This document shows, piece by piece, positions 1,745 to 12,014 of a stretch of DNA of 34,011 nt. Position numbers and translations under genes: made by a program. Origin of the DNA: Firmicutes bacterium ZCTH02-B6 (lineage in GTDB: Bacteria; Bacillota; Limnochordia; Limnochordales; ZCTH02-B6). The stretch is taken from contig LZRQ01000027.1 of the NCBI GenBank assembly GCA_002159155.1, positions 1-34,011 on the forward strand, in the 5' to 3' direction. The notes beneath the pieces are model-generated. The model searched no databases and was not told where the DNA came from. It saw only the letters and a program-made list of their open reading frames with translations. Each line of letters starts with the position of its first letter. Position 1 is the stretch's first letter.

Positions 1745-2671
1745 ATGGTTCGCGAAGAACTGCGCGGGGTATTCCCGGCCGTCCTGGTACCGTTCAAGGA
1801 CGACTACAGCATTGACGAGGAAGGCTTCAGGCGCCTCGTCAACTGGGTGGCGAGCCACGACGGCGTTAAGGGAATTGTCGTCAATGGCCACACGGGCGAA
1901 ATCCAGTCCCTACTGCCCGAGGAACGGGCAGAAGTGGTGCGCATCGCCGTCTCGGAACTTAAGGGCCGTATCCCCGTCTTCTCCGGCGTATCCGCCGAGG
2001 GCACCATCGAAGCAGCCAAGCATGCCCGGGCCGTCCAAGAGGCTGGCGGCCAGGGCATCCTGCTGATGCCGCCCCACTCGTGGTTGCGGTTCGGCATGCA
2101 GCCCGAGTCGCCGGTAGAGTTTTTCCGGGGCGTGGCTAAGGCCATTGACATTTCCATCATCGTGCATCAGTACCCCAAGTGGACCAAGGCCAGCTACAAC
2201 TTGCAGCAGCTGTTGGCCATGAGCGAGATCCCGAACGTCATCGCCGTCAAGATGGGTGAACGGGACATGGCCACCTATGAGCTGCACGTGCGCACGCTGC
2301 GCAAGGAAGCGCCCCACCTGGCCCTGTGGACGTGCCACGACGAGTACTTGCTGCCCACCCTGGTGCAGGGGATGGACGGTGCGCTCGTCGGCTTCGCTTC
2401 CTTTGTCCCTGACCTCATCGTCGCCCTGGTGCGGGCGGTATGGGCGCAGGACCTGCCCGAGGCCAAGCGGGTGTACGATCGCATCTACGAGCTGAAGCAA
2501 GCCGTCTATCGCATGGACGAGCCCTCGGCGACGTCCCACGCGCGCATGAAGGAGGCCATGTTCCAGCGGGGCCTGATCCCCAACGCGCTGGCCCGGCCGC
2601 CGGTGGTGCCTCTCACCGAGGCCGAAAAGGCGTCCATCCGCGAAGGTCTGGTGCGGGTCGGCCTGCTGTAA
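1745..2671 (+). CDS. DapA / N-acetylneuraminate lyase superfamily aldolase
   Basis: GGAGG-type RBS upstream of ATG 1745; TIM-barrel class I aldolase motifs GHTGE and putative Schiff-base Lys in VIAVKMGERD. Confidence 0.88.
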   Translation: MVREELRGVFPAVLVPFKDDYSIDEEGFRRLVNWVASHDGVKGIVVNGHTGEIQSLLPEERAEVVRIAVSELKGRIPVFSGVSAEGTIEAAKHARAVQEAGGQGILLMPPHSWLRFGMQPESPVEFFRGVAKAIDISIIVHQYPKWTKASYNLQQLLAMSEIPNVIAVKMGERDMATYELHVRTLRKEAPHLALWTCHDEYLLPTLVQGMDGALVGFASFVPDLIVALVRAVWAQDLPEAKRVYDRIYELKQAVYRMDEPSATSHARMKEAMFQRGLIPNALARPPVVPLTEAEKASIREGLVRVGLL

Positions 2672-2704
2672 GAATTCGCCGCGCTGCCAGCCTCCCGCCG
2701 GCGT

Positions 2705-2751
2705 CCGGTAGCGCCGTGGGCCCCTGGGAAGGGTTGTCCCGGCGCTACCGG
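2705..2751. repeat. Perfect 12-bp inverted repeat CCGGTAGCGCCG / CGGCGCTACCGG with 23-nt loop, between convergent genes; possible bidirectional terminator
   Basis: Direct reading: 2705-2716 and 2740-2751 are exact reverse complements; no T-tract. Confidence 0.6.
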
Positions 2752-2832
2752 CGTGCCTGCCGGCCGTGTGCAGCGACGACCCGAGACACGGGGGCTGGTG
2801 CCATTGCACAGGGCGCCGCTTGGCCACCATTG

Positions 2833-3579
2833 TCACGCGGCATTCGCCAGCGGGTGCTTCATCCACACGTGCGGGTCTGCGTAGACGCCGACGTCGGCCT
2901 CCCGGTCGACAGCCACAGGCTGCAAAGCGCCGGGCACGACGTACTGGCCGCTGCCCGGCATCGGCACCCCGGTCCACTCCTCCCACTGGGCAACAGGCGC
3001 CTCTACAGTCAGCGTGTTCCGGGCGACCTTGAGAAAGCTAGCGCCCATGCGCCAATGAACCCGCAGCCACGGGTCAAAGGGCGCACCATCCGTGCGGGTC
3101 CAGCGGACGTATTCCTCCAAGGGGATAAGGGGATAGCGGGCTTTCCAGGTAGGCCGGACGGGGATGATGAGGTCCGCGCAACCCAGTTGCCGGCCGCTCC
3201 GGCGCATCTCCCGGAGAATCATCCTGCTAAGTCCCCTGCCCTGGTACTCTTGCGCCACGATGGCGGCCAACGCGCAGACGGCGTTGGGCTTGCGCCCCTC
3301 CTCCTCGGTTTGCAAGGCCCGTACGAGGATTTCATCAAGGGTTTCCGGAAGATCGGTCAACGTGCCGTCCCAGACAAGGGGCACCATATACCCCACCGCT
3401 GCCACCCGGTTGGACCCGTCACAGATAAGAATCTGGTGGTGTGCGAACGTGTCGAACACGTGCTTCCAATGGGGCGTGTCCCGGTACCGCAGAAAATCAG
3501 GCCACGCGCCTTTGTCCAGCTCTAAAACTTGGTCTAATAGGTCAGGTCTTTCACTGAGACTGTGGGTAGCGAAAGCCAT
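2833..3579 (-). CDS. GNAT family N-acetyltransferase
   Basis: MAFATHSLSERPDLL start preceded by AGGAGG; AIVAQEYQGRGLSRMILREMRR acetyl-CoA binding motif (Q/RxxGxG/A). Confidence 0.75.
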   Translation of the reverse strand: MAFATHSLSERPDLLDQVLELDKGAWPDFLRYRDTPHWKHVFDTFAHHQILICDGSNRVAAVGYMVPLVWDGTLTDLPETLDEILVRALQTEEEGRKPNAVCALAAIVAQEYQGRGLSRMILREMRRSGRQLGCADLIIPVRPTWKARYPLIPLEEYVRWTRTDGAPFDPWLRVHWRMGASFLKVARNTLTVEAPVAQWEEWTGVPMPGSGQYVVPGALQPVAVDREADVGVYADPHVWMKHPLANAA

Positions 3580-3662
3580 GCCCAGTCCTCCTGTGCCGTG
3601 TTTGCCGGCGTTCGACAAAGACGCCGCAAAGGATTGGCGACAGCCGCGGGGCCGCCTCATGC

Positions 3663-5018
3663 TCACCGGGGTGCGGCAAGACCATCCCGCAGAAGCTCCA
3701 GGTACACCGCGGTCTGCTCGGTGATGCTGGGCAGCAGGTTGAGCCCTTTCTGCGGGTGAGAGCTCAATTCCACCAGCAAGCGGTCAGCCAACGTGTCGGT
3801 AACCATCATGACCAGCTGCACCGCCTGGGCGGGCTCGACATCAGGCCGGAACGACGTGGTGTCGACACCGTCCATGATCAGTTCCCAGCCGCGCTGCGTC
3901 GCTTCGGCGACGTATTGCTGCAGCGCCTCTCGCGCACCCTCAGGCGGCTGGGCCAAGGCGGCAAGCACCAATCCGTATAAAGTCGGTTGCTCTTGAAAAA
4001 TAAGCGTCTTCCGGCGGGTCCAATTCAATAACCGCCGGATGAGGTCCGGTTCGGGACCGTCCTCGCGTTCGAAAAAGACCTTTGAGATGCGGGCGGCGGC
4101 GTCGGCCACAGAGGCCAGGTAGAGCTCGGCCTTAGACCCAAAGTGGTGAAAGATCAAGCCCTTGGCCACCCCGGCACGCTCCGCGACCGCTTCGGCAGAC
4201 GTGCCGTTATAGCCGCGCTCGGCAAACAACTCCTGGGCGGCACGGAGAATGCGCTCCCGCCGCTCATCCGCAGCTTGGACGGCTGGTGCGAGCCGCTCCA
4301 GCGCCGCGAAAAACGGTTTTGGATCGAGGGAAACCGGCCGAGCCCCAGGATGAGTTCCGGGACGGTACAGACCGTGGCGCAGCAAGTCGGCAAGCGCCCG
4401 GGCCCGTAGGCGCGCGTCCTCTGGGTTTGCGACCGACGCAGCAGCGTGGAGACCATCAGTAGCCAAGACCTCCGCTAGCCCGTCCAACGCCTGGTTTTCA
4501 AACCCTTCCGCCACCATCGCCAGCAATTCAATGGCGGCTCGGGGCTCGACACCAGACCGGAAGGCGCGGGTGTCGACGCCTTCCCGGAATCGGCTCCGCA
4601 GCCGGCTATAATGCTCGTCGATGCGGCGGGCAGGTGGACTCAACACAGAGTGCAAACGGCCCCGGAAGCGGGCGACGAACCACGCCTCCACCGGATGGGC
4701 GGCCAGCCGTGCGCACCTACGGGTGAGAAACTCCTCCAGCCGCGCGAACGGATCCGCCGGAAGAGGCTCATCCTCGGTGGGAAACAACCGTTCACATGCC
4801 CACTCGAGAGCAGCGTTGAAGAGGTCCTGCTTTGAGCCGAAGTGCCGGAAGAGGAGTCCTTTGGCCACTTGTGCGCTTTTGGCCATGCGGTTGGTGGACG
4901 CGGCATCATAGCCCCAGCGGGCAAACTCCGCGACCGCGGCGGACAAAATTGCCCCCCGCCGCCGGCCGCGGCGGATGCCATAAACCCGATCCTCGGTATG
5001 CGGGATTTCCACTGTCAC
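3663..5018 (-). CDS. Transcriptional regulator with two tandem TetR/AcrR units
   Basis: GTG start with TGGAGG RBS; two TetR HTH segments: ILSAAVAEFARWGYDAASTNRMAKSAQVAKGLLFRHFGSKQDLF and ILRAAQELFAERGYNGTSAEAVAERAGVAKGLIFHHFGSKAELY, each followed by a TetR-like C-terminal domain. Confidence 0.92.
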   Translation of the reverse strand: MTVEIPHTEDRVYGIRRGRRRGAILSAAVAEFARWGYDAASTNRMAKSAQVAKGLLFRHFGSKQDLFNAALEWACERLFPTEDEPLPADPFARLEEFLTRRCARLAAHPVEAWFVARFRGRLHSVLSPPARRIDEHYSRLRSRFREGVDTRAFRSGVEPRAAIELLAMVAEGFENQALDGLAEVLATDGLHAAASVANPEDARLRARALADLLRHGLYRPGTHPGARPVSLDPKPFFAALERLAPAVQAADERRERILRAAQELFAERGYNGTSAEAVAERAGVAKGLIFHHFGSKAELYLASVADAAARISKVFFEREDGPEPDLIRRLLNWTRRKTLIFQEQPTLYGLVLAALAQPPEGAREALQQYVAEATQRGWELIMDGVDTTSFRPDVEPAQAVQLVMMVTDTLADRLLVELSSHPQKGLNLLPSITEQTAVYLELLRDGLAAPR

Positions 5019-5036
5019 GTGGTCGGCCTCCAGCGA

Positions 5037-6137
5037 TCAGAAAAACCAACGAAGGCCGCCTGCAAGTCCGAGCCCGGCCGGCTGGGGCGGCCGCACCTGG
5101 CGGCGGAGCGACAGTTCCACCTCCGCCTGCCCGGGCAGCAGTCCGTAGGAGAGGGCAACACCCACCTCGTATGCCCGCTCGTTCCCTGCAAGCCCCCCAC
5201 CTCCGGCAGGCGCTCCCTTGTCAAGGAAGACGAGGGCGTCTGCGATCACCGCCCACCCGGAAGGAAACGCATAAGCCAGCTGTGCCGCGGCCACAGAAGC
5301 CTCGGTGGTCTCATCTCCAGCGCCGCCCGCCGCCGTAACGCTCGCCCGGCCGACCTCCGCAGTCCATAAAAAGTCGCCCACGTAGCCGGTGGCTCCCACG
5401 CTGCCGCGCAGGCCCGGCGCGCCTTTGAGGCTCCACAATTCCCCGTAGACGACCGTGGATCCTATCAGCCCGCTGGCACCGACACCTGCTGCGAGGCCGT
5501 CCTCCCGCCAAAGTACGTACCCCGTCGCCTCCCAGCCCACCAGTTGCTGCCGCCAGCCTAGAAGCCGCGTCCACTCCTCCCCCGCTCGCACGACCCCCAA
5601 CTGCAGCCGCCCGGTAGGCAAATACACATCGGTGCGCGCGCCGTCGACCCCCGGCCGGCGCCCGGCTTGGTCATGCGGCGTCAACGTGAACGGCATCGTC
5701 AAGCGGGCGGTTTCCAGCGGCAGCTGAAATCGGCCCACATACACATCCACGGCGGGAAACCGGAGGCCGGCGTAGGCTTCCGTCACAAGGGCAACGGAAC
5801 CCGCGACAACGCCGGTGCCGCTCAGGTCCACCGGAAACCACGGCTCCACCGTCAACGCAACCCACCACGGCGCAGCGACCGCCGGATTCAGCTGCAACGC
5901 CAATCTTCCTGCGAAAACGCCCACGGTCTCGGACACTGCACCGTGAGCTTGATGAGCGACCGTCACTGATGCCTCTCCTGCCACCGCCGCCTCGACGCCA
6001 TGGTCAGGCGCGGCCAGTGCGACGGCCCCGGGTCCGGCCAACAGATCGCCCCACAGGGCGAGTCCCGTCACGAGAATCAGCCGCAGCACCAAACGCCCAA
6101 GCCCCCAGCGCCGGCGCCAACTTAAGCGGCGGCTCAT
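5037..6137 (-). CDS. Predicted exported beta-barrel-like protein
   Basis: Basic plus hydrophobic N-terminal signal sequence; alternating amphipathic beta pattern; C-terminus ...GLAGGLRWFF ends in aromatic residue; 4-bp ATGA overlap with upstream ATPase gene. Confidence 0.6.
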   Translation of the reverse strand: MSRRLSWRRRWGLGRLVLRLILVTGLALWGDLLAGPGAVALAAPDHGVEAAVAGEASVTVAHQAHGAVSETVGVFAGRLALQLNPAVAAPWWVALTVEPWFPVDLSGTGVVAGSVALVTEAYAGLRFPAVDVYVGRFQLPLETARLTMPFTLTPHDQAGRRPGVDGARTDVYLPTGRLQLGVVRAGEEWTRLLGWRQQLVGWEATGYVLWREDGLAAGVGASGLIGSTVVYGELWSLKGAPGLRGSVGATGYVGDFLWTAEVGRASVTAAGGAGDETTEASVAAAQLAYAFPSGWAVIADALVFLDKGAPAGGGGLAGNERAYEVGVALSYGLLPGQAEVELSLRRQVRPPQPAGLGLAGGLRWFF

Positions 6138-6829
6138 GCCGCCCCCACCCGCTCGTCAGCCACCACGCGGCCGTCCTCAAGGCGAATGATGCGCTTCACG
6201 TGCTCCAACAGGCGCGGGTCGTGGGTGGAAAACAAGAACGTGATGCCCCGTTCCTCGTTGAGCTTTTTCATGAGCTCGATGAGGGACAGCCCGGCTTTCG
6301 AATCGAGGTTGGCCGTGGGCTCGTCGGCCAACACCACCCGCGGTTGTGCGGCGAGCGCCCGGGCCACCGCGACCCGTTGTTGCTGGCCGCCGGACAGCTG
6401 GTTGGGCCGGCGGTGGGCCAGTTCCGCGATTCCCAATGCCTCCAGGGCCGCCATCGCCTTCGCGTTCCGTTCCTCTCTAGGTACTCCCTGCAACTCCAGG
6501 ACAAAGGCCGCGTTTTCCAGCGCCGTCAGGACGGGGATAAGGTTGTAGGCTTGAAACACGAACCCAATCTCCCGTAGGCGCAGATGGGCCCGGGACACGT
6601 CGTCCAATTGGTCGGTGCGCCGCTCGCCGAGCCACGTCTCGCCCGCTGTCGGCTTGTCCAAACAGCCCAACAGGTGCAGCAGCGTGCTCTTGCCGGAGCC
6701 GCTCGGGCCCGCGATGGCGGTGAACTCCCCCGGCACGATCTCCAGGTCAACCCCTTGCAGCGCTGGCGTCCTCACACCTTCATTCTCGTACACTTTGGTC
6801 AGCCTGACGGCGCGCAAGATCGGTTTCAT
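6134..6829 (-). CDS. ABC transporter ATP-binding protein, LolD/MacB type
   Basis: GPSGSGKSTLLHLLGCLDKPTAG Walker A, LSGGQQQRVAVARAL signature, VVLADEPTANLDSK Walker B. Confidence 0.93.
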   Translation of the reverse strand: MKPILRAVRLTKVYENEGVRTPALQGVDLEIVPGEFTAIAGPSGSGKSTLLHLLGCLDKPTAGETWLGERRTDQLDDVSRAHLRLREIGFVFQAYNLIPVLTALENAAFVLELQGVPREERNAKAMAALEALGIAELAHRRPNQLSGGQQQRVAVARALAAQPRVVLADEPTANLDSKAGLSLIELMKKLNEERGITFLFSTHDPRLLEHVKRIIRLEDGRVVADERVGAA

Positions 6830-6846
6830 GACCGCAAATCCCTCCC

Positions 6847-8073
6847 CTAGGCCGCGTGCCGCATGGCTTCCACGGGCTGCAGGCGTCCTGCAACCCATGC
6901 TGGCCAAAGGGCGGCCGCCAGCGCGGTGAAAATCGCGAACGTCACCGTGACGGCCACCTGTACGGGAGTTACCGATGGGTACAGCACCAGCGGGAGCCCA
7001 TACTCGGCCATGACCTCATCGAACCCCGGCATACGGAACCCGTCCGCCCAGCTCGCGATGAGCAGCCCGCCGGCCAGCAGCCCAACGGCCGTGCCGGCCA
7101 GTACCAGAGTGAGACTCTCCGCGACCACCATGCGCATCACCCGCCACCGGTCGGCGCCGACGGCGAGGATGACGCCGAACTCCCGGATGCGCTCCACCAG
7201 GCTCAGGTAAATGGTGTTGACCACCATAAGGCCGGCCAGGACAAAGATGAAGAAGGAAAAGACGGTCATGACGGGGTCCATCATGTCGAGGAGCGCGGCC
7301 GTGTCGGGCGAGGCTTCGCGCCACGTTTCGACCAGCACCTCCTCCCCCAGCAGGGCTGTCGCCCTGGCCTTGGTTTCCTCCACCAAGGCATCCGTCGGTG
7401 CACCGCGCTCGGCTGCGAGGTGTACCTGGAGGCGGGTGACGGCACCCGGTGCAGCCAGTTCCTGGGCTCCTTCCAGGGACAAGTACGCCGCCTGGATCTC
7501 GTGGGATGTCTGGGGGAAGTCCAACAGCCCGACGAGGGTGTAGGCAGCTGCACCCCAGCCGTCGGTTCCCGGAGCAAACACGTAGACCGGATCTCCCAAC
7601 TCGACTTGCAAAGCCTTGGCAAGCGCCTGGCCGAGGGCGATCTCGTCCCAACTGCCGGGGGCGGGGAGCCGGCCGGCCGCGACGTATTCCCTGGCAAAAC
7701 GCTCGCCGAGGGCCTCGTCCTGCTCCATCCCGACGACCATGGCCCCACGGGCTCGCGTTTCGCCGCTGATGAGGGCAGGTACTTCCAAGAGCCGCCGCAG
7801 CCGGACACCCCGCAGTTCCTTGAGGAGCGCCATTTCCACCTCAGCCGCGTTGCGGATGAGGCGTGCGTCAAAGTCCTGAGCTTCCTTCGCTTGGGCATGA
7901 GTGATCTGCAGATGGCCTGACTCGGAAGTCAACACTTCGACCATGCCGTTCATGGTGGCGGTGACAAACCCGAAGAAAACGAGCGTAAACACAACGGCCA
8001 CTGCCACCGCACCGCCAGCCACGAAGCTCCGGGTTTTATGTCGCCAGACATTGCGCCAGGCCAATCCCCACAC
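6847..8073 (-). CDS. ABC transporter permease, FtsX/LolE-MacB type
   Basis: N-terminal WRNVWRHKTRS, SGHLQITH extracytoplasmic motif, C-terminal FtsX region RIREFGVILAVGADRWRVMRMVVAESL. Confidence 0.88.
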   Translation of the reverse strand: MWGLAWRNVWRHKTRSFVAGGAVAVAVVFTLVFFGFVTATMNGMVEVLTSESGHLQITHAQAKEAQDFDARLIRNAAEVEMALLKELRGVRLRRLLEVPALISGETRARGAMVVGMEQDEALGERFAREYVAAGRLPAPGSWDEIALGQALAKALQVELGDPVYVFAPGTDGWGAAAYTLVGLLDFPQTSHEIQAAYLSLEGAQELAAPGAVTRLQVHLAAERGAPTDALVEETKARATALLGEEVLVETWREASPDTAALLDMMDPVMTVFSFFIFVLAGLMVVNTIYLSLVERIREFGVILAVGADRWRVMRMVVAESLTLVLAGTAVGLLAGGLLIASWADGFRMPGFDEVMAEYGLPLVLYPSVTPVQVAVTVTFAIFTALAAALWPAWVAGRLQPVEAMRHAA

Positions 8074-10122
8074 TCACCGGCACCCTCTTTCCAACGCTTG
8101 CAGCGTGAAGCAGGCGTCGGGAACCGACGTGTCCAACTCCACGCCCGACAGGCGAACAAGGGTCCTGTACCCTTGCTTGGTCAGGTCCTCCACCACCATC
8201 AGCTGGGGCAGACGACTACCCCCGACCTCGAGATACTCCGAGAGCGTCAAGCGCTTGACGACTCGGCCCCGCTGGTCGTAGTAGTCGAGCCACTGCGGCG
8301 TCAAGCTGGTCTCCTCGACGCCGATGACGACACGGCCATAGGGCGTCGGGGCGCCCTGGCGCGGGGTGAGCTCGAGCACGATGGTGGCGTCCGTCCCACG
8401 GCCGCCGGCCGCTTCAGGGGCGGCGAACATCGCGGTGTAGTCCTTCTCGATGTCCCGGCCGACAATGTCGTTGTAGCTCACGTCCGAACTCAGGAAGGCG
8501 TTGCTGCGACCGCTGGGAGGAAGCCGGAGAGAGCGGCCTAAGCGGGCGTTGTACAGCCAAAGATCAGCACCGTCCATCAGAAACGCCTGCCCGGCTTCCC
8601 GGGGCGGCGCGACGATCCTGATGAGACCGCGGTCTTGACCGTCCGCGACGATCTCCATCACGTACTCCGTGGTCCGGCCCGGCCGCTCAATCGTGAACGT
8701 GTAAGTGCCCCGCAACGGCCCGCCGCGCCAGTTGTCCACCACCGCCTCTAACACGCCGGTGGCGTCCACCCCGGGGTGCACCGCGCCCTGGGTCGCGGCT
8801 GCAACGCCAGCCACTGTTAGAGCCACCACGATGCCCACAACCGCAGCGAACGCCCGCATGGCGATCGCGGTCCGCAGGCGTGCCGCCCGCCGCCCCGGGA
8901 CCAGGGCGCTCAGGACGACCGCCGCGGCGATCACCATGCCGGAGTACACCACATAGACGGCCCGCACCGCGCCGTACACCTCCTCGCTCAAGCCCGCCGT
9001 CGGCATGCTGGCGCTGACGGCGCCAAACAGCGGGCCGAGGATGTTGTAGCTGGCGAGAAGCCAAGCGAACGCGTAGCCTAGGCCCAAACCCGCAAGCCAG
9101 CCTAGAACACACGTGAACAACGCCTCCAGCGTCACCAGCGCCCCCAGACGGCCGGGCGGCACGCCCAGAGCGGAGATGACGCCCAACTCCCGAGTCCGTT
9201 CCATCACGCTCACAAAGACGGTACTGGCCACGGCCACCGCGGCGAAGGCGTAGACGATGAGCGCCAACACGTGGGCAAACACCCGGTTGGCTTCCACGTC
9301 GGCCTTGATCGGCCCGACGAGGTCCCAGACACCCCGGGCCGTAACGCCTGCGGGCAACACCGCCTGGGTTCGTCGTGCCACCTCGTCCTCCGCCCCCCGG
9401 GCAACGTCCAGGTCGAGCGTGGTGGCGGTGGACACCCCTGTAAGGCGGCGGGCGTCGTCGAGGTGAATAATAACGGCCGTTTGATCGACCAACGCCACCC
9501 CGCCGCGCACTATCCCCACAACCCGCAGCCCCATGGCCTGTGGTCCAGCCAGTGACCCGGCGCTCACCACCACCTGCTCGCCGATCCGGGCGTCGATGCG
9601 GCGGGCCACCTCTTGCCCCAAAACGATTTCTCCCGGCCCGGCGAGCCAGCGCCCTTCCGCCACCTTGCCGGGGATGCGGCTCAAGCGCGGCTCCCCCGCG
9701 GGGTCGACCCCCACGACTTCAACCCCCTGGGTGACGTAGACCGATTGGAGGAGCGCGGGAAACTGAAGCCTCGGCGAGGCCGCCCTGATGCCCGGGACAT
9801 CGGCCAGTGCCTGCTGGAACGCCAAATCGCTGAGGTGGTTCTCCGGGTCGGGGTCTTCGTACCAAGCATCCGCGGCGATACGCACGGGGGCAATGATGTA
9901 GCGGGCGTACGACTCGACGACCGACTCCGCGTACCCGTCCACGAAGCTCCAGTACACGATGGTAAGAAAGGTCACGTACGTTACGACCACCAGCAGCAGG
10001 ATGGTCCGCTGTCTGTGGCGCCACAAGTTGCGCCAAGCGAGACGCACGAGAGCCATGGCAGGAGAGGAACGCATCAGGGATATGGCAGGAGCGGGAGCCG
10101 GTTGGCGGGTTCCTTGCGTCAC
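8074..10122 (-). CDS. FtsX/LolE-type ABC permease fused to a LolA-like outer-membrane lipoprotein-sorting domain
   Basis: Permease half has WRNLWRHRQRT and ERTRELGVISALGVPPGRLGALVTLEALF; in-frame C-terminal half begins MRAFAAVVGIVVALTVAGVAAATQ (signal-like) and continues with LolA-like GTYTFTIERPGRTTEYVMEIVADGQDRGLIRIVAPPREAGQAFLMDGADLWLYNARLGRSLRLP. Confidence 0.85.
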   Translation of the reverse strand: MTQGTRQPAPAPAISLMRSSPAMALVRLAWRNLWRHRQRTILLLVVVTYVTFLTIVYWSFVDGYAESVVESYARYIIAPVRIAADAWYEDPDPENHLSDLAFQQALADVPGIRAASPRLQFPALLQSVYVTQGVEVVGVDPAGEPRLSRIPGKVAEGRWLAGPGEIVLGQEVARRIDARIGEQVVVSAGSLAGPQAMGLRVVGIVRGGVALVDQTAVIIHLDDARRLTGVSTATTLDLDVARGAEDEVARRTQAVLPAGVTARGVWDLVGPIKADVEANRVFAHVLALIVYAFAAVAVASTVFVSVMERTRELGVISALGVPPGRLGALVTLEALFTCVLGWLAGLGLGYAFAWLLASYNILGPLFGAVSASMPTAGLSEEVYGAVRAVYVVYSGMVIAAAVVLSALVPGRRAARLRTAIAMRAFAAVVGIVVALTVAGVAAATQGAVHPGVDATGVLEAVVDNWRGGPLRGTYTFTIERPGRTTEYVMEIVADGQDRGLIRIVAPPREAGQAFLMDGADLWLYNARLGRSLRLPPSGRSNAFLSSDVSYNDIVGRDIEKDYTAMFAAPEAAGGRGTDATIVLELTPRQGAPTPYGRVVIGVEETSLTPQWLDYYDQRGRVVKRLTLSEYLEVGGSRLPQLMVVEDLTKQGYRTLVRLSGVELDTSVPDACFTLQALERGCR

Positions 10123-10171
10123 GGTCTGACCACCGCCTTTCGCGGAGCAGACAAGGGGGCTGCCCGAAAAG

Positions 10172-10222
10172 TGACCGCGCGGTCAGCACCTCAAGTCTAC
10201 CGCGAAAGTGACCACTTGGTCA
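10172..10222 (-). promoter_or_regulatory. Two TetR-like palindromic operators over a putative promoter for the 10122->3663 operon
   Basis: TGACCGCGCGGTCA at 10172-10185 (perfect) and TGACCACTTGGTCA at 10209-10222 (6-bp arms); on minus strand TTGACC (10223-10218), 18-nt spacer, TAGACT (10199-10194). Confidence 0.7.
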
Positions 10223-10289
10223 ACGCGTCGCGCCTTCCAGGGGATCGCGCGAGGGTGTCGAAGCGGTGCATCGGTTTGGAGCGCGCCGG

Positions 10290-10868
10290 CTAAAGTTCCC
10301 GGATCACTCGGCACGGGTTTCCCGCGGCCAGCACCCGAGGCGGGACCTCCTTGGTGACCACCGCGCCGGCACCGATGACGGCCCCGTCGCCGACCCGCAC
10401 CCCAGGGCAAATGATCGCGCCGCCGCCGACCCACACGTCGTTGCCGATGTACACCGGCAATGCGGACTCCAGTCCCCGCCGCCGCTCGTCGGGATCGAGG
10501 GGATGGGTGGCCGTGTAGATGTGCACCCCGGGGCCAAACAAGACGTTGCTGCCGATGTGCACCTCGGCCGGATCAAGGATCACGCAGTCGAAGTTGAAAA
10601 ACACCCGGTCCCCCAGGTAAATGTTCTTGCCGTAGTCGCAGTAAAACGGCGGCTCGATGACCACTTCCGCGCCGACCGCGCCGAACAGCTCTTCATACAG
10701 TGCCCTCCGGGAGGAGGGATTGCCGTAATCCGGATCGGGTGCAAAGTTGAGTCGCCGCAGAAGTTCCCGCGCCCGGCGCCGGCCCGCCAACAGCTCCGGG
10801 TCCGAGGCGTCGTAAAGCTCGCCTTCCAGCATCTTCATTCGTTCCGACTTCAACCCCATCGCCTCCAC
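10290..10868 (-). CDS. Sugar O-acetyltransferase, maltose/galactoside acetyltransferase type (left-handed beta-helix)
   Basis: KMLEGELYDASDPEL N-terminal Mac motif; hexapeptide repeats ...GPGVHIYTATHPLDPDER...IGNDVWVGGGAIICPGVRVGDGAVIGAGAVVTKEVPP. Confidence 0.95.
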   Translation of the reverse strand: MEAMGLKSERMKMLEGELYDASDPELLAGRRRARELLRRLNFAPDPDYGNPSSRRALYEELFGAVGAEVVIEPPFYCDYGKNIYLGDRVFFNFDCVILDPAEVHIGSNVLFGPGVHIYTATHPLDPDERRRGLESALPVYIGNDVWVGGGAIICPGVRVGDGAVIGAGAVVTKEVPPRVLAAGNPCRVIREL

Positions 10869-10980
10869 CGACGTCTCCTATGCGGCGGTCACCGCGGGTC
10901 AATGGTAGTCTCCCCACCGGTACGGCGAACGACGCCGTCCGGAAGTGCAAAAGACAGCATGCTGTGACGACGACGTTGGC

Positions 10981-11889
10981 CTACCCGTGCAGGAACGAAA
11001 GCCCGCGCCGGAGGCTCGAGCCAAAGCCGTTTGGGTAGTCGTGGCCGAGTCCGGGGTGCTCCTCCACGTCGCAGGCCAGACCAGCTTGCTTCATGGCCAA
11101 CGCGAGCTCTTTGGCGGGCCCATAGCACCAGTCCTCGGTTCCGACCACGACGTATCCCCGGACGCCGCGGGGCGCCGTTTGGACCAGCGGGCCCATCTGC
11201 TCCGTGCGAAAACTCGGAGCGACAGCCAGGAACCCGCAGGCCGGTATCGATCCGCTCAACGTCGCGCGAATGGCCAAGCCTCCCCCCATCGAGAAGCCCG
11301 CGAGCACGATCGGGGAACCCTCCCCGATCTCCTCAAGGTGGCGGCGCACTTCTTCTATGGCTTTGGCCGCGTCTTGCCAGTGGTAGCGTCGAGGGGCAAA
11401 GACTTGCGATGACTGCAGCATGGCAACGCGCCATCCTAGCTGTACCGCTTGGCGCCAGTAATCGCCTTCGGTCAGGATGCTGCCGCCGGCTCCGTGCAGG
11501 GCGACCAAAAGACCGCACGGCTGCCCGGCCGGCTCCCACACTTGCCGCTCCGGTTTCGCCTCCGCTTGCGCCTGCTGGTGTCGCTCGTTAAATAGGCGCT
11601 GCAGGTCAGCCAGTTCCGCGGAATCGCGGATGATGTCCAAGTCCGGATCCCGGAGCATGCGCTCATGGTACCAGTGGCCGCGTTCGGCCGCCGACTGGAG
11701 CGCCCTGATGGCCTCGGAGCGGTTCCCCAGGCGCCCATAGAGACAAGCCCGCCAAAAGAGAAGGTCGCTCTCGAACTGCGTCAGCGCCTCGGCATGCTCG
11801 TCAATCAGCGCCAGCGCTTCCGCGTACGCTTGGCGCTCAGAGAGGGCGAACACCCGGTCGCGTAGTCGCTTAAACTGGGCGTCTTGCAT
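10981..11889 (-). CDS. Alpha/beta hydrolase (phospholipase/carboxylesterase-like) with N-terminal TPR-like helical region
   Basis: LVALHGAGGS, nucleophile elbow GFSMGG, C-terminal GLGHDYP; N-terminal helical repeat AYAEALALIDEHAEAL...GRLGNRSEAIRALQSAAERG. Confidence 0.8.
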   Translation of the reverse strand: MQDAQFKRLRDRVFALSERQAYAEALALIDEHAEALTQFESDLLFWRACLYGRLGNRSEAIRALQSAAERGHWYHERMLRDPDLDIIRDSAELADLQRLFNERHQQAQAEAKPERQVWEPAGQPCGLLVALHGAGGSILTEGDYWRQAVQLGWRVAMLQSSQVFAPRRYHWQDAAKAIEEVRRHLEEIGEGSPIVLAGFSMGGGLAIRATLSGSIPACGFLAVAPSFRTEQMGPLVQTAPRGVRGYVVVGTEDWCYGPAKELALAMKQAGLACDVEEHPGLGHDYPNGFGSSLRRGLSFLHG

Positions 11890-12014
11890 CTCCCAACGTC
11901 CCCCGTTGGACAAAATTCCTTTAGACCGATGGGTTCTACCTTTGAACACCCAGGTGCGCGATCCTTCGCCCCCAAGTAGCGGAGGAGGGAGGTCACCGGC
12001 TCGTCCTCTTTTAC

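Follow-up and report, generated by a model that had tools for sequence, protein, structure and literature searches.

The window analysed here, a stretch of 34,011 nucleotides, is the entire contig C27 of a 2.77-Mb draft assembly (304 contigs) whose genome, that of a compost bacterium, is placed in the order Limnochordales (family ZCTH02-B6). The MAGs ZC4RG06 and ZC3RG10 have been assigned to this same provisional family of the Limnochordales (PMC8434746); the window's own genome is G000 in the numbering used for its relatives (G001, G002 and so on). Five co-oriented genes fill positions 10122-3663 on the minus strand: a permease-LolA fusion (10122-8074), a second permease (8073-6847), a LolD-type ATPase (6829-6134), a predicted outer-membrane β-barrel protein (6137-5037) and a tandem TetR regulator (5018-3663). 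The coordinates bear out the five genes, order and spacing first described for this locus, including the ATGA overlap between the ATPase and barrel genes and the 18-nt gap between the barrel and TetR genes, with one start corrected. The longest ORF of the ATPase, beginning at 6907, is over-extended: its orthologues begin at the equivalent of Met27 (6829), and this start leaves a 17-nt gap after permease 2 and removes the overlap between the two genes. Pfam assigned FtsX/MacB_PCD and LolA_like domains to the fusion, FtsX to permease 2, ABC_tran to the ATPase and two TetR_N domains to the regulator, with no Pfam family for the barrel protein; searching the window for Rfam families and tRNA genes gave no match.

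Directly after the TetR gene lies a GNAT-like acetyltransferase gene (2833-3666), the true start of which is likely an ATG around 3580 that has a GGAGG site. It was considered as a sixth operon member and rejected, as a scan of seven related loci gave no match to it. On the other side of the operon, upstream, a maltose-acetyltransferase-like gene and an alpha/beta hydrolase gene occupy positions 10290-11949; this pair recurs in the same order in G001 (93% and 76–79% identity) and in none of the other relatives examined.

The first permease (8860-10122, minus strand; residues ~1-421 of the fusion, with FtsX and MacB_PCD domains) has LolE as its closest solved structure (E 2.3e-15), and permease 2 (408 aa) has LolC (E 7.6e-8), the two being ~28% identical to each other. 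Permease 2 shares 58–81% identity with its counterparts in five relatives, and the ATPase is 80–91% identical among full-length orthologues. The LolA-like carrier domain (8074-8640, minus strand; PF17131, E 2.4e-38) spans residues 495-679, up to the end of the fusion gene, and finds its solved relatives in the LolA-superfamily structures 3buu, 4z48 and 3bk5. The initial annotation had read these parts as LolCDE and LolA. That identity stands only as remote homology: the proteins score well below the NCBIfam cut-offs—the permeases with 78–83 bits against the lolCE cut-off of 362, the ATPase with 216 bits against the LolD cut-off of 308—and the carrier belongs to PF17131, with no canonical LolA (PF03548) in the window genome. 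In E. coli, LolA docks onto a hairpin of LolC, the Hook, which is essential (PMC10865981). The corresponding loop of permease 2, conserved among its orthologues, appears ~8 residues shorter than residues 168-178 of E. coli LolC in a weak pairwise alignment, so that hand-over to the carrier may differ.

The fusion of permease and carrier, proposed from the outset, is present but specific to the window genome: no other genome in the 73-genome class set searched showed it. Permease 1 is a stand-alone gene in all relatives, and the carrier, kept in all orthologous operons, is a separate gene in every one of them. There, permease 1 ends in an AMRxE-like motif and a stop codon, followed by ~15–70 nt with a ribosome site, a new start and a signal peptide. 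The window junction (8788-8859, minus strand), identified from the relatives' intergenic region and from hydropathy as what was once the signal peptide of the LolA-like protein, reads RTAIAMR-AFAAVVGIVVALTVAGVAAA; stop, ribosome site and start have disappeared together with the basic N-terminal part of the signal peptide, and the loss is in frame. A one-base frameshift was rejected as the origin of the fusion, the whole intergenic stretch having been cleanly lost in frame. Hydropathy predicts that the core of this peptide, residues 424-442, now forms an additional transmembrane segment preceded by a basic loop on the cytoplasmic side, an arrangement that would put the carrier in the periplasm, either tethered or cut free; the junction has an AxA-type cleavage motif.

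An outer-membrane component is plausible in this host, unlike in ordinary Firmicutes, because the Limnochordia are Bacillota that are diderm by microscopy (PMC11456536) and because Omp85 was found in all 21 genomes searched, the window genome included, which shows an outer membrane. The putative barrel protein carries a signal peptide and ends in the aromatic motif LRWFF. Its orthologues share signal-peptide-like N-termini, an invariant GRxxLPxETxRLxxPxT core and C-termini (LRWFF, LRYFF or LRYYL) that are aromatic as in outer-membrane proteins, and remote profile homology connects them to the barrels of distant cassettes (hhalign E 6e-7, probability 92%). Strand alternation exceeded that of shuffled sequences in four of six orthologues (p 0.004–0.012) and was not significant in the other two, with non-barrel controls negative; these statistics moderately support the predicted barrel. 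The protein gave no Pfam match, no recognisable DUF1302 and no Omp85 match, and its AlphaFold2 model, computed from a two-sequence input, had a pLDDT of 33.6. Its outer-membrane location is a prediction, and we infer its export and its place as the last step of the path.

Close orthologues of permease 1 and the carrier occur in eight of the 73 class genomes, the window genome counted—a patchy presence that fits an accessory function. The related loci lie in G001 (same genus as the window genome), G003 (same family), G002, G008, G009, G015 and G020. G001, G003, G008, G015 and G020 share the block permease 1–LolA-like–permease 2–ATPase–barrel, which is diverged in G009 and split over three contigs (C219, C311 and C189) in G002, and the barrel is kept at every locus whose contig extends to its position. 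The earlier claim that energiser, extraction, carrier and predicted outer-membrane barrel form one co-oriented unit is upheld by this retention of the block. In G000, G002 (C189), G008, G015 and G020, the gene after the barrel is the tandem TetR; no orthologue of it was found in G001 or G003, either at the locus or elsewhere in the genome; although G001 is 89% complete, its operon contig itself has no TetR after the barrel. The initial annotation had called for a search for the same gene order in relatives and had counted conserved synteny lacking the barrel or the TetR as evidence against a self-contained operon: the barrel was retained, but the TetR is missing from two relatives. G002 apparently contains two operon copies, one similar to that of G003 and another that carries the tandem TetR, and the bin may include a second strain. 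Outside the class, no barrel orthologue was found in a 399-genome phylum sample.

A promoter candidate (10194-10223, minus strand) precedes the operon, comprising a −35 box TTGACC (10223-10218), an 18-nt spacer and a −10 box TAGACT (10199-10194), with an expected transcription start near 10187. It is the sole sigma-70-like match in positions 2600-11000 (8.4 kb), where 0.9 would be expected by chance, so that on its own it is no better than chance; the −35 and −10 columns are kept in relatives. The palindrome first reported at this promoter is real, but there are two of them. Operator O1 (TGACCAAGTGGTCA, 10209-10222) overlaps most of the −35 box and part of the spacer, and operator O2 (TGACCGCGCGGTCA, 10172-10185), a perfect palindrome, is located at about +2 to +15; both read TGACC-N4-GGTCA, stand 36–37 bp apart and flank the −10 box. 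The pair at this set spacing greatly exceeds chance, with occurrences in five of 61 genomes—G000, G008, G015 and G020 at this operon, G054 elsewhere—and a reversed control pattern gave 0 matches in the same 61 genomes. The former four are the loci where promoter and tandem TetR are both readable, the promoter of the tandem-TetR copy in G002 not being on any recovered contig. O1 is conserved in G008, G015, G020 and G001 and degraded in G003, and O2 is conserved in G003, G008, G015 and G020 and degraded in G001, the two degraded cases being those without the TetR. The genome has two more single TGACC-N4-GGTCA sites, both within ORFs and as frequent as matches to the control pattern, for which reason we claim no wider regulon. 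In G054 (contig C28, L072, 4944-4996), the operator pair lies upstream of genes for an alpha/beta hydrolase, an unrelated TetR with one module and a phosphotriesterase-family protein.

The regulator has two complete TetR modules in each chain (two TetR_N copies, 113 bits in all), with near-identical recognition segments (VAKGLLFRHFGSK / VAKGLIFHHFGSK), as expected if each helix-turn-helix module reads the same TGACC half-site. The operators match the RutR box, TTGACCAnnTGGTCAA. The RutR site has been described as a palindrome of ~16 bp (PMC10891134), and the window protein shares TetR_N domains with RutR and TetR-family repressors at large, from which it differs in its two full modules per chain and in the two operators that bracket one promoter. 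No close tandem relative was detected outside the class in the 399-genome phylum sample, the three other matches covering the second module only; an AlphaFold2 model from a one-sequence input had a pLDDT of 37.7. As the operator pair and the tandem TetR co-occur and decay together, the comparative evidence that the tandem TetR would autoregulate the operon is strong. The idea of an operon with its own repressor is thus strengthened by two operators at the operon promoter and qualified by the relatives that lack the TetR, which is not integral to the system.

Two described cassettes have a comparable composition. In Castellaniella defragrans, AmeABCD comprises the RND/HAE3 transporter AmeD, the LolA-superfamily protein AmeB and the DUF1302 outer-membrane protein AmeA, and its deletion lowers tolerance of apolar monoterpenes and increases Nile Red accumulation (PMC6394551). 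Like the window operon, it unites an energised inner-membrane transporter, a LolA-superfamily periplasmic protein and a dedicated outer-membrane protein in one cassette, and the three structures related to the window carrier are those cited for AmeB (PMC6394551); the window operon differs in its LolCDE-type ABC energiser and tandem TetR, and in having no recognisable DUF1302 and no AmeC. In Borrelia, BBJ23-29 encodes a MacB/LolE-like ABC transporter, the LolA-like BBJ28 and the Omp85-type barrel BBJ25, and has been proposed to supply the outer membrane with a non-polar ligand (PMC13078400). The clustering of a LolCDE-like ABC transporter, a LolA-like carrier and an outer-membrane barrel is common to both; the Borrelia cluster combines an Omp85-family barrel and two TPR proteins with one permease, proposed to act as a homodimer, whereas here there are two permeases, a barrel without an Omp85 match and a self-encoded TetR. 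The operon is a new variant of a known transport design, not a new type of system.

The class itself, in which PF17131 is present in 54 of 61 genomes, contains distant ABC cassettes, often arranged as (TetR)–ATPase–permease–permease–LolA-like–barrel, along with RND cassettes made up of MMPL, LolA_like and a DUF1302-like barrel. One of the latter, with MMPL, LolA_like and a DUF1302-type barrel, is a second cassette of the window genome itself (contig C36, L074:4378-8975). In one other family of the class, MMPL/RND-LolA_like fusions of ~1015–1030 aa are found (L085:3008-7924, L087:5414-10372, L088 and L089), preceded by a single TetR and followed by a barrel. Given these RND-LolA fusions in another family, the joining of engine and carrier has occurred at least twice.

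On balance, we consider it rather probable that the locus is an accessory, inducible, ABC-powered operon for trans-envelope export of a hydrophobic or lipid-like substrate. The LolE-like and LolC-like permeases, presumably a heterodimer, would be driven by the LolD-like ATPase to lift the substrate from the inner membrane and pass it on to the LolA-like periplasmic carrier, from which the dedicated outer-membrane β-barrel would receive or release it. The double-module TetR would bind both TGACC-N4-GGTCA operators, over the −35 box and the transcription start, repressing the whole operon, including its own gene, until a ligand—probably the substrate—frees the operators. In the fused protein, the former signal peptide of the carrier would form an extra membrane helix, which signal peptidase may or may not still cleave. 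A bolder version, which we regard as quite improbable, would have the carrier remain tethered through this fifth membrane helix, swing between permease and barrel and so offset a missing LolC Hook, with the TetR acting as a natural single-chain 'dimer' on its paired operators.

Other explanations have to be weighed against the export operon. The genes might be the organism's Lol lipoprotein-sorting system, in which the ABC complex would extract lipoproteins and the LolA-like domain ferry them to the outer membrane, with the barrel standing in for LolB. The kinship of the permeases with LolE and LolC fits this proposal, as does the absence of canonical LolA from the window genome and from 59 of the 61 genomes searched, which could leave the PF17131 protein as sole carrier, and in Halanaerobiales, other diderm Firmicutes, LolA and LolCDE have been proposed to lie in one cluster (PMC5007114). 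Against it, the scores fall far below the Lol equivalog cut-offs, and with orthologues in so few class genomes, and some class genomes lacking any LolA_like protein, the operon does not look like housekeeping; moreover, it is under TetR control and includes no LolB-type gene. Compared with LolCDE-LolA of E. coli, it is alike in permease and ATPase homology and in the principle of extracting and carrying, and unlike in its PF17131 carrier in place of PF03548, its barrel in place of LolB, its patchy distribution, its TetR and its apparently shortened Hook. We therefore find a Lol role unlikely, and export of a hydrophobic or lipid-like substrate is favoured, with moderate confidence, over housekeeping lipoprotein sorting because the RND form of the cassette matches AmeABCD and the ABC form resembles Borrelia BBJ23-29.

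More remote still, and highly improbable in our judgement, is a MacB-like efflux pump forming a continuous channel instead of a shuttle, with the barrel in the place of TolC and the LolA-like domain in that of MacA. The permeases do belong to the MacB/FtsX superfamily, and TetR control is common among efflux pumps; yet the operon contains neither a MacA-type adaptor nor a TolC-type protein, its ATPase is separate from the permease, LolE and LolC outscore MacB, and the carrier belongs to a superfamily of lipid-binding half-barrels, not of adaptors. The fusion, for its part, could be an artefact of assembly or binning that masks two separate genes, a suspicion that a draft in 304 contigs and the separate genes of every relative invite. 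We hold this to be improbable too, and more so than a Lol role, as the join is in frame, free of stops and frameshifts, tens of nucleotides shorter than the corresponding region of the relatives and retains a plausible signal-peptide core, GC3 shows no shift at the junction, and energiser-LolA fusions of another kind (RND-LolA) exist in the same class.

What surprises in the export operon that we favour is its switch of paired operators and tandem TetR, a compact regulatory element, together with an engine that seems exchangeable and a carrier fused to its permease. Diderm Firmicutes hold a key place in discussions of how the outer membrane was gained or lost, and little is known of how their envelopes transport hydrophobic material. 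In the Limnochordia, a LolA-like carrier and a barrel, often together with a TetR, are combined with two unrelated engines, a LolCDE-type ABC transporter and an RND/MMPL protein, each with at least one fusion to the carrier—a pattern which suggests that the carrier-barrel pair is the functional core of these systems and that the engine can be exchanged.
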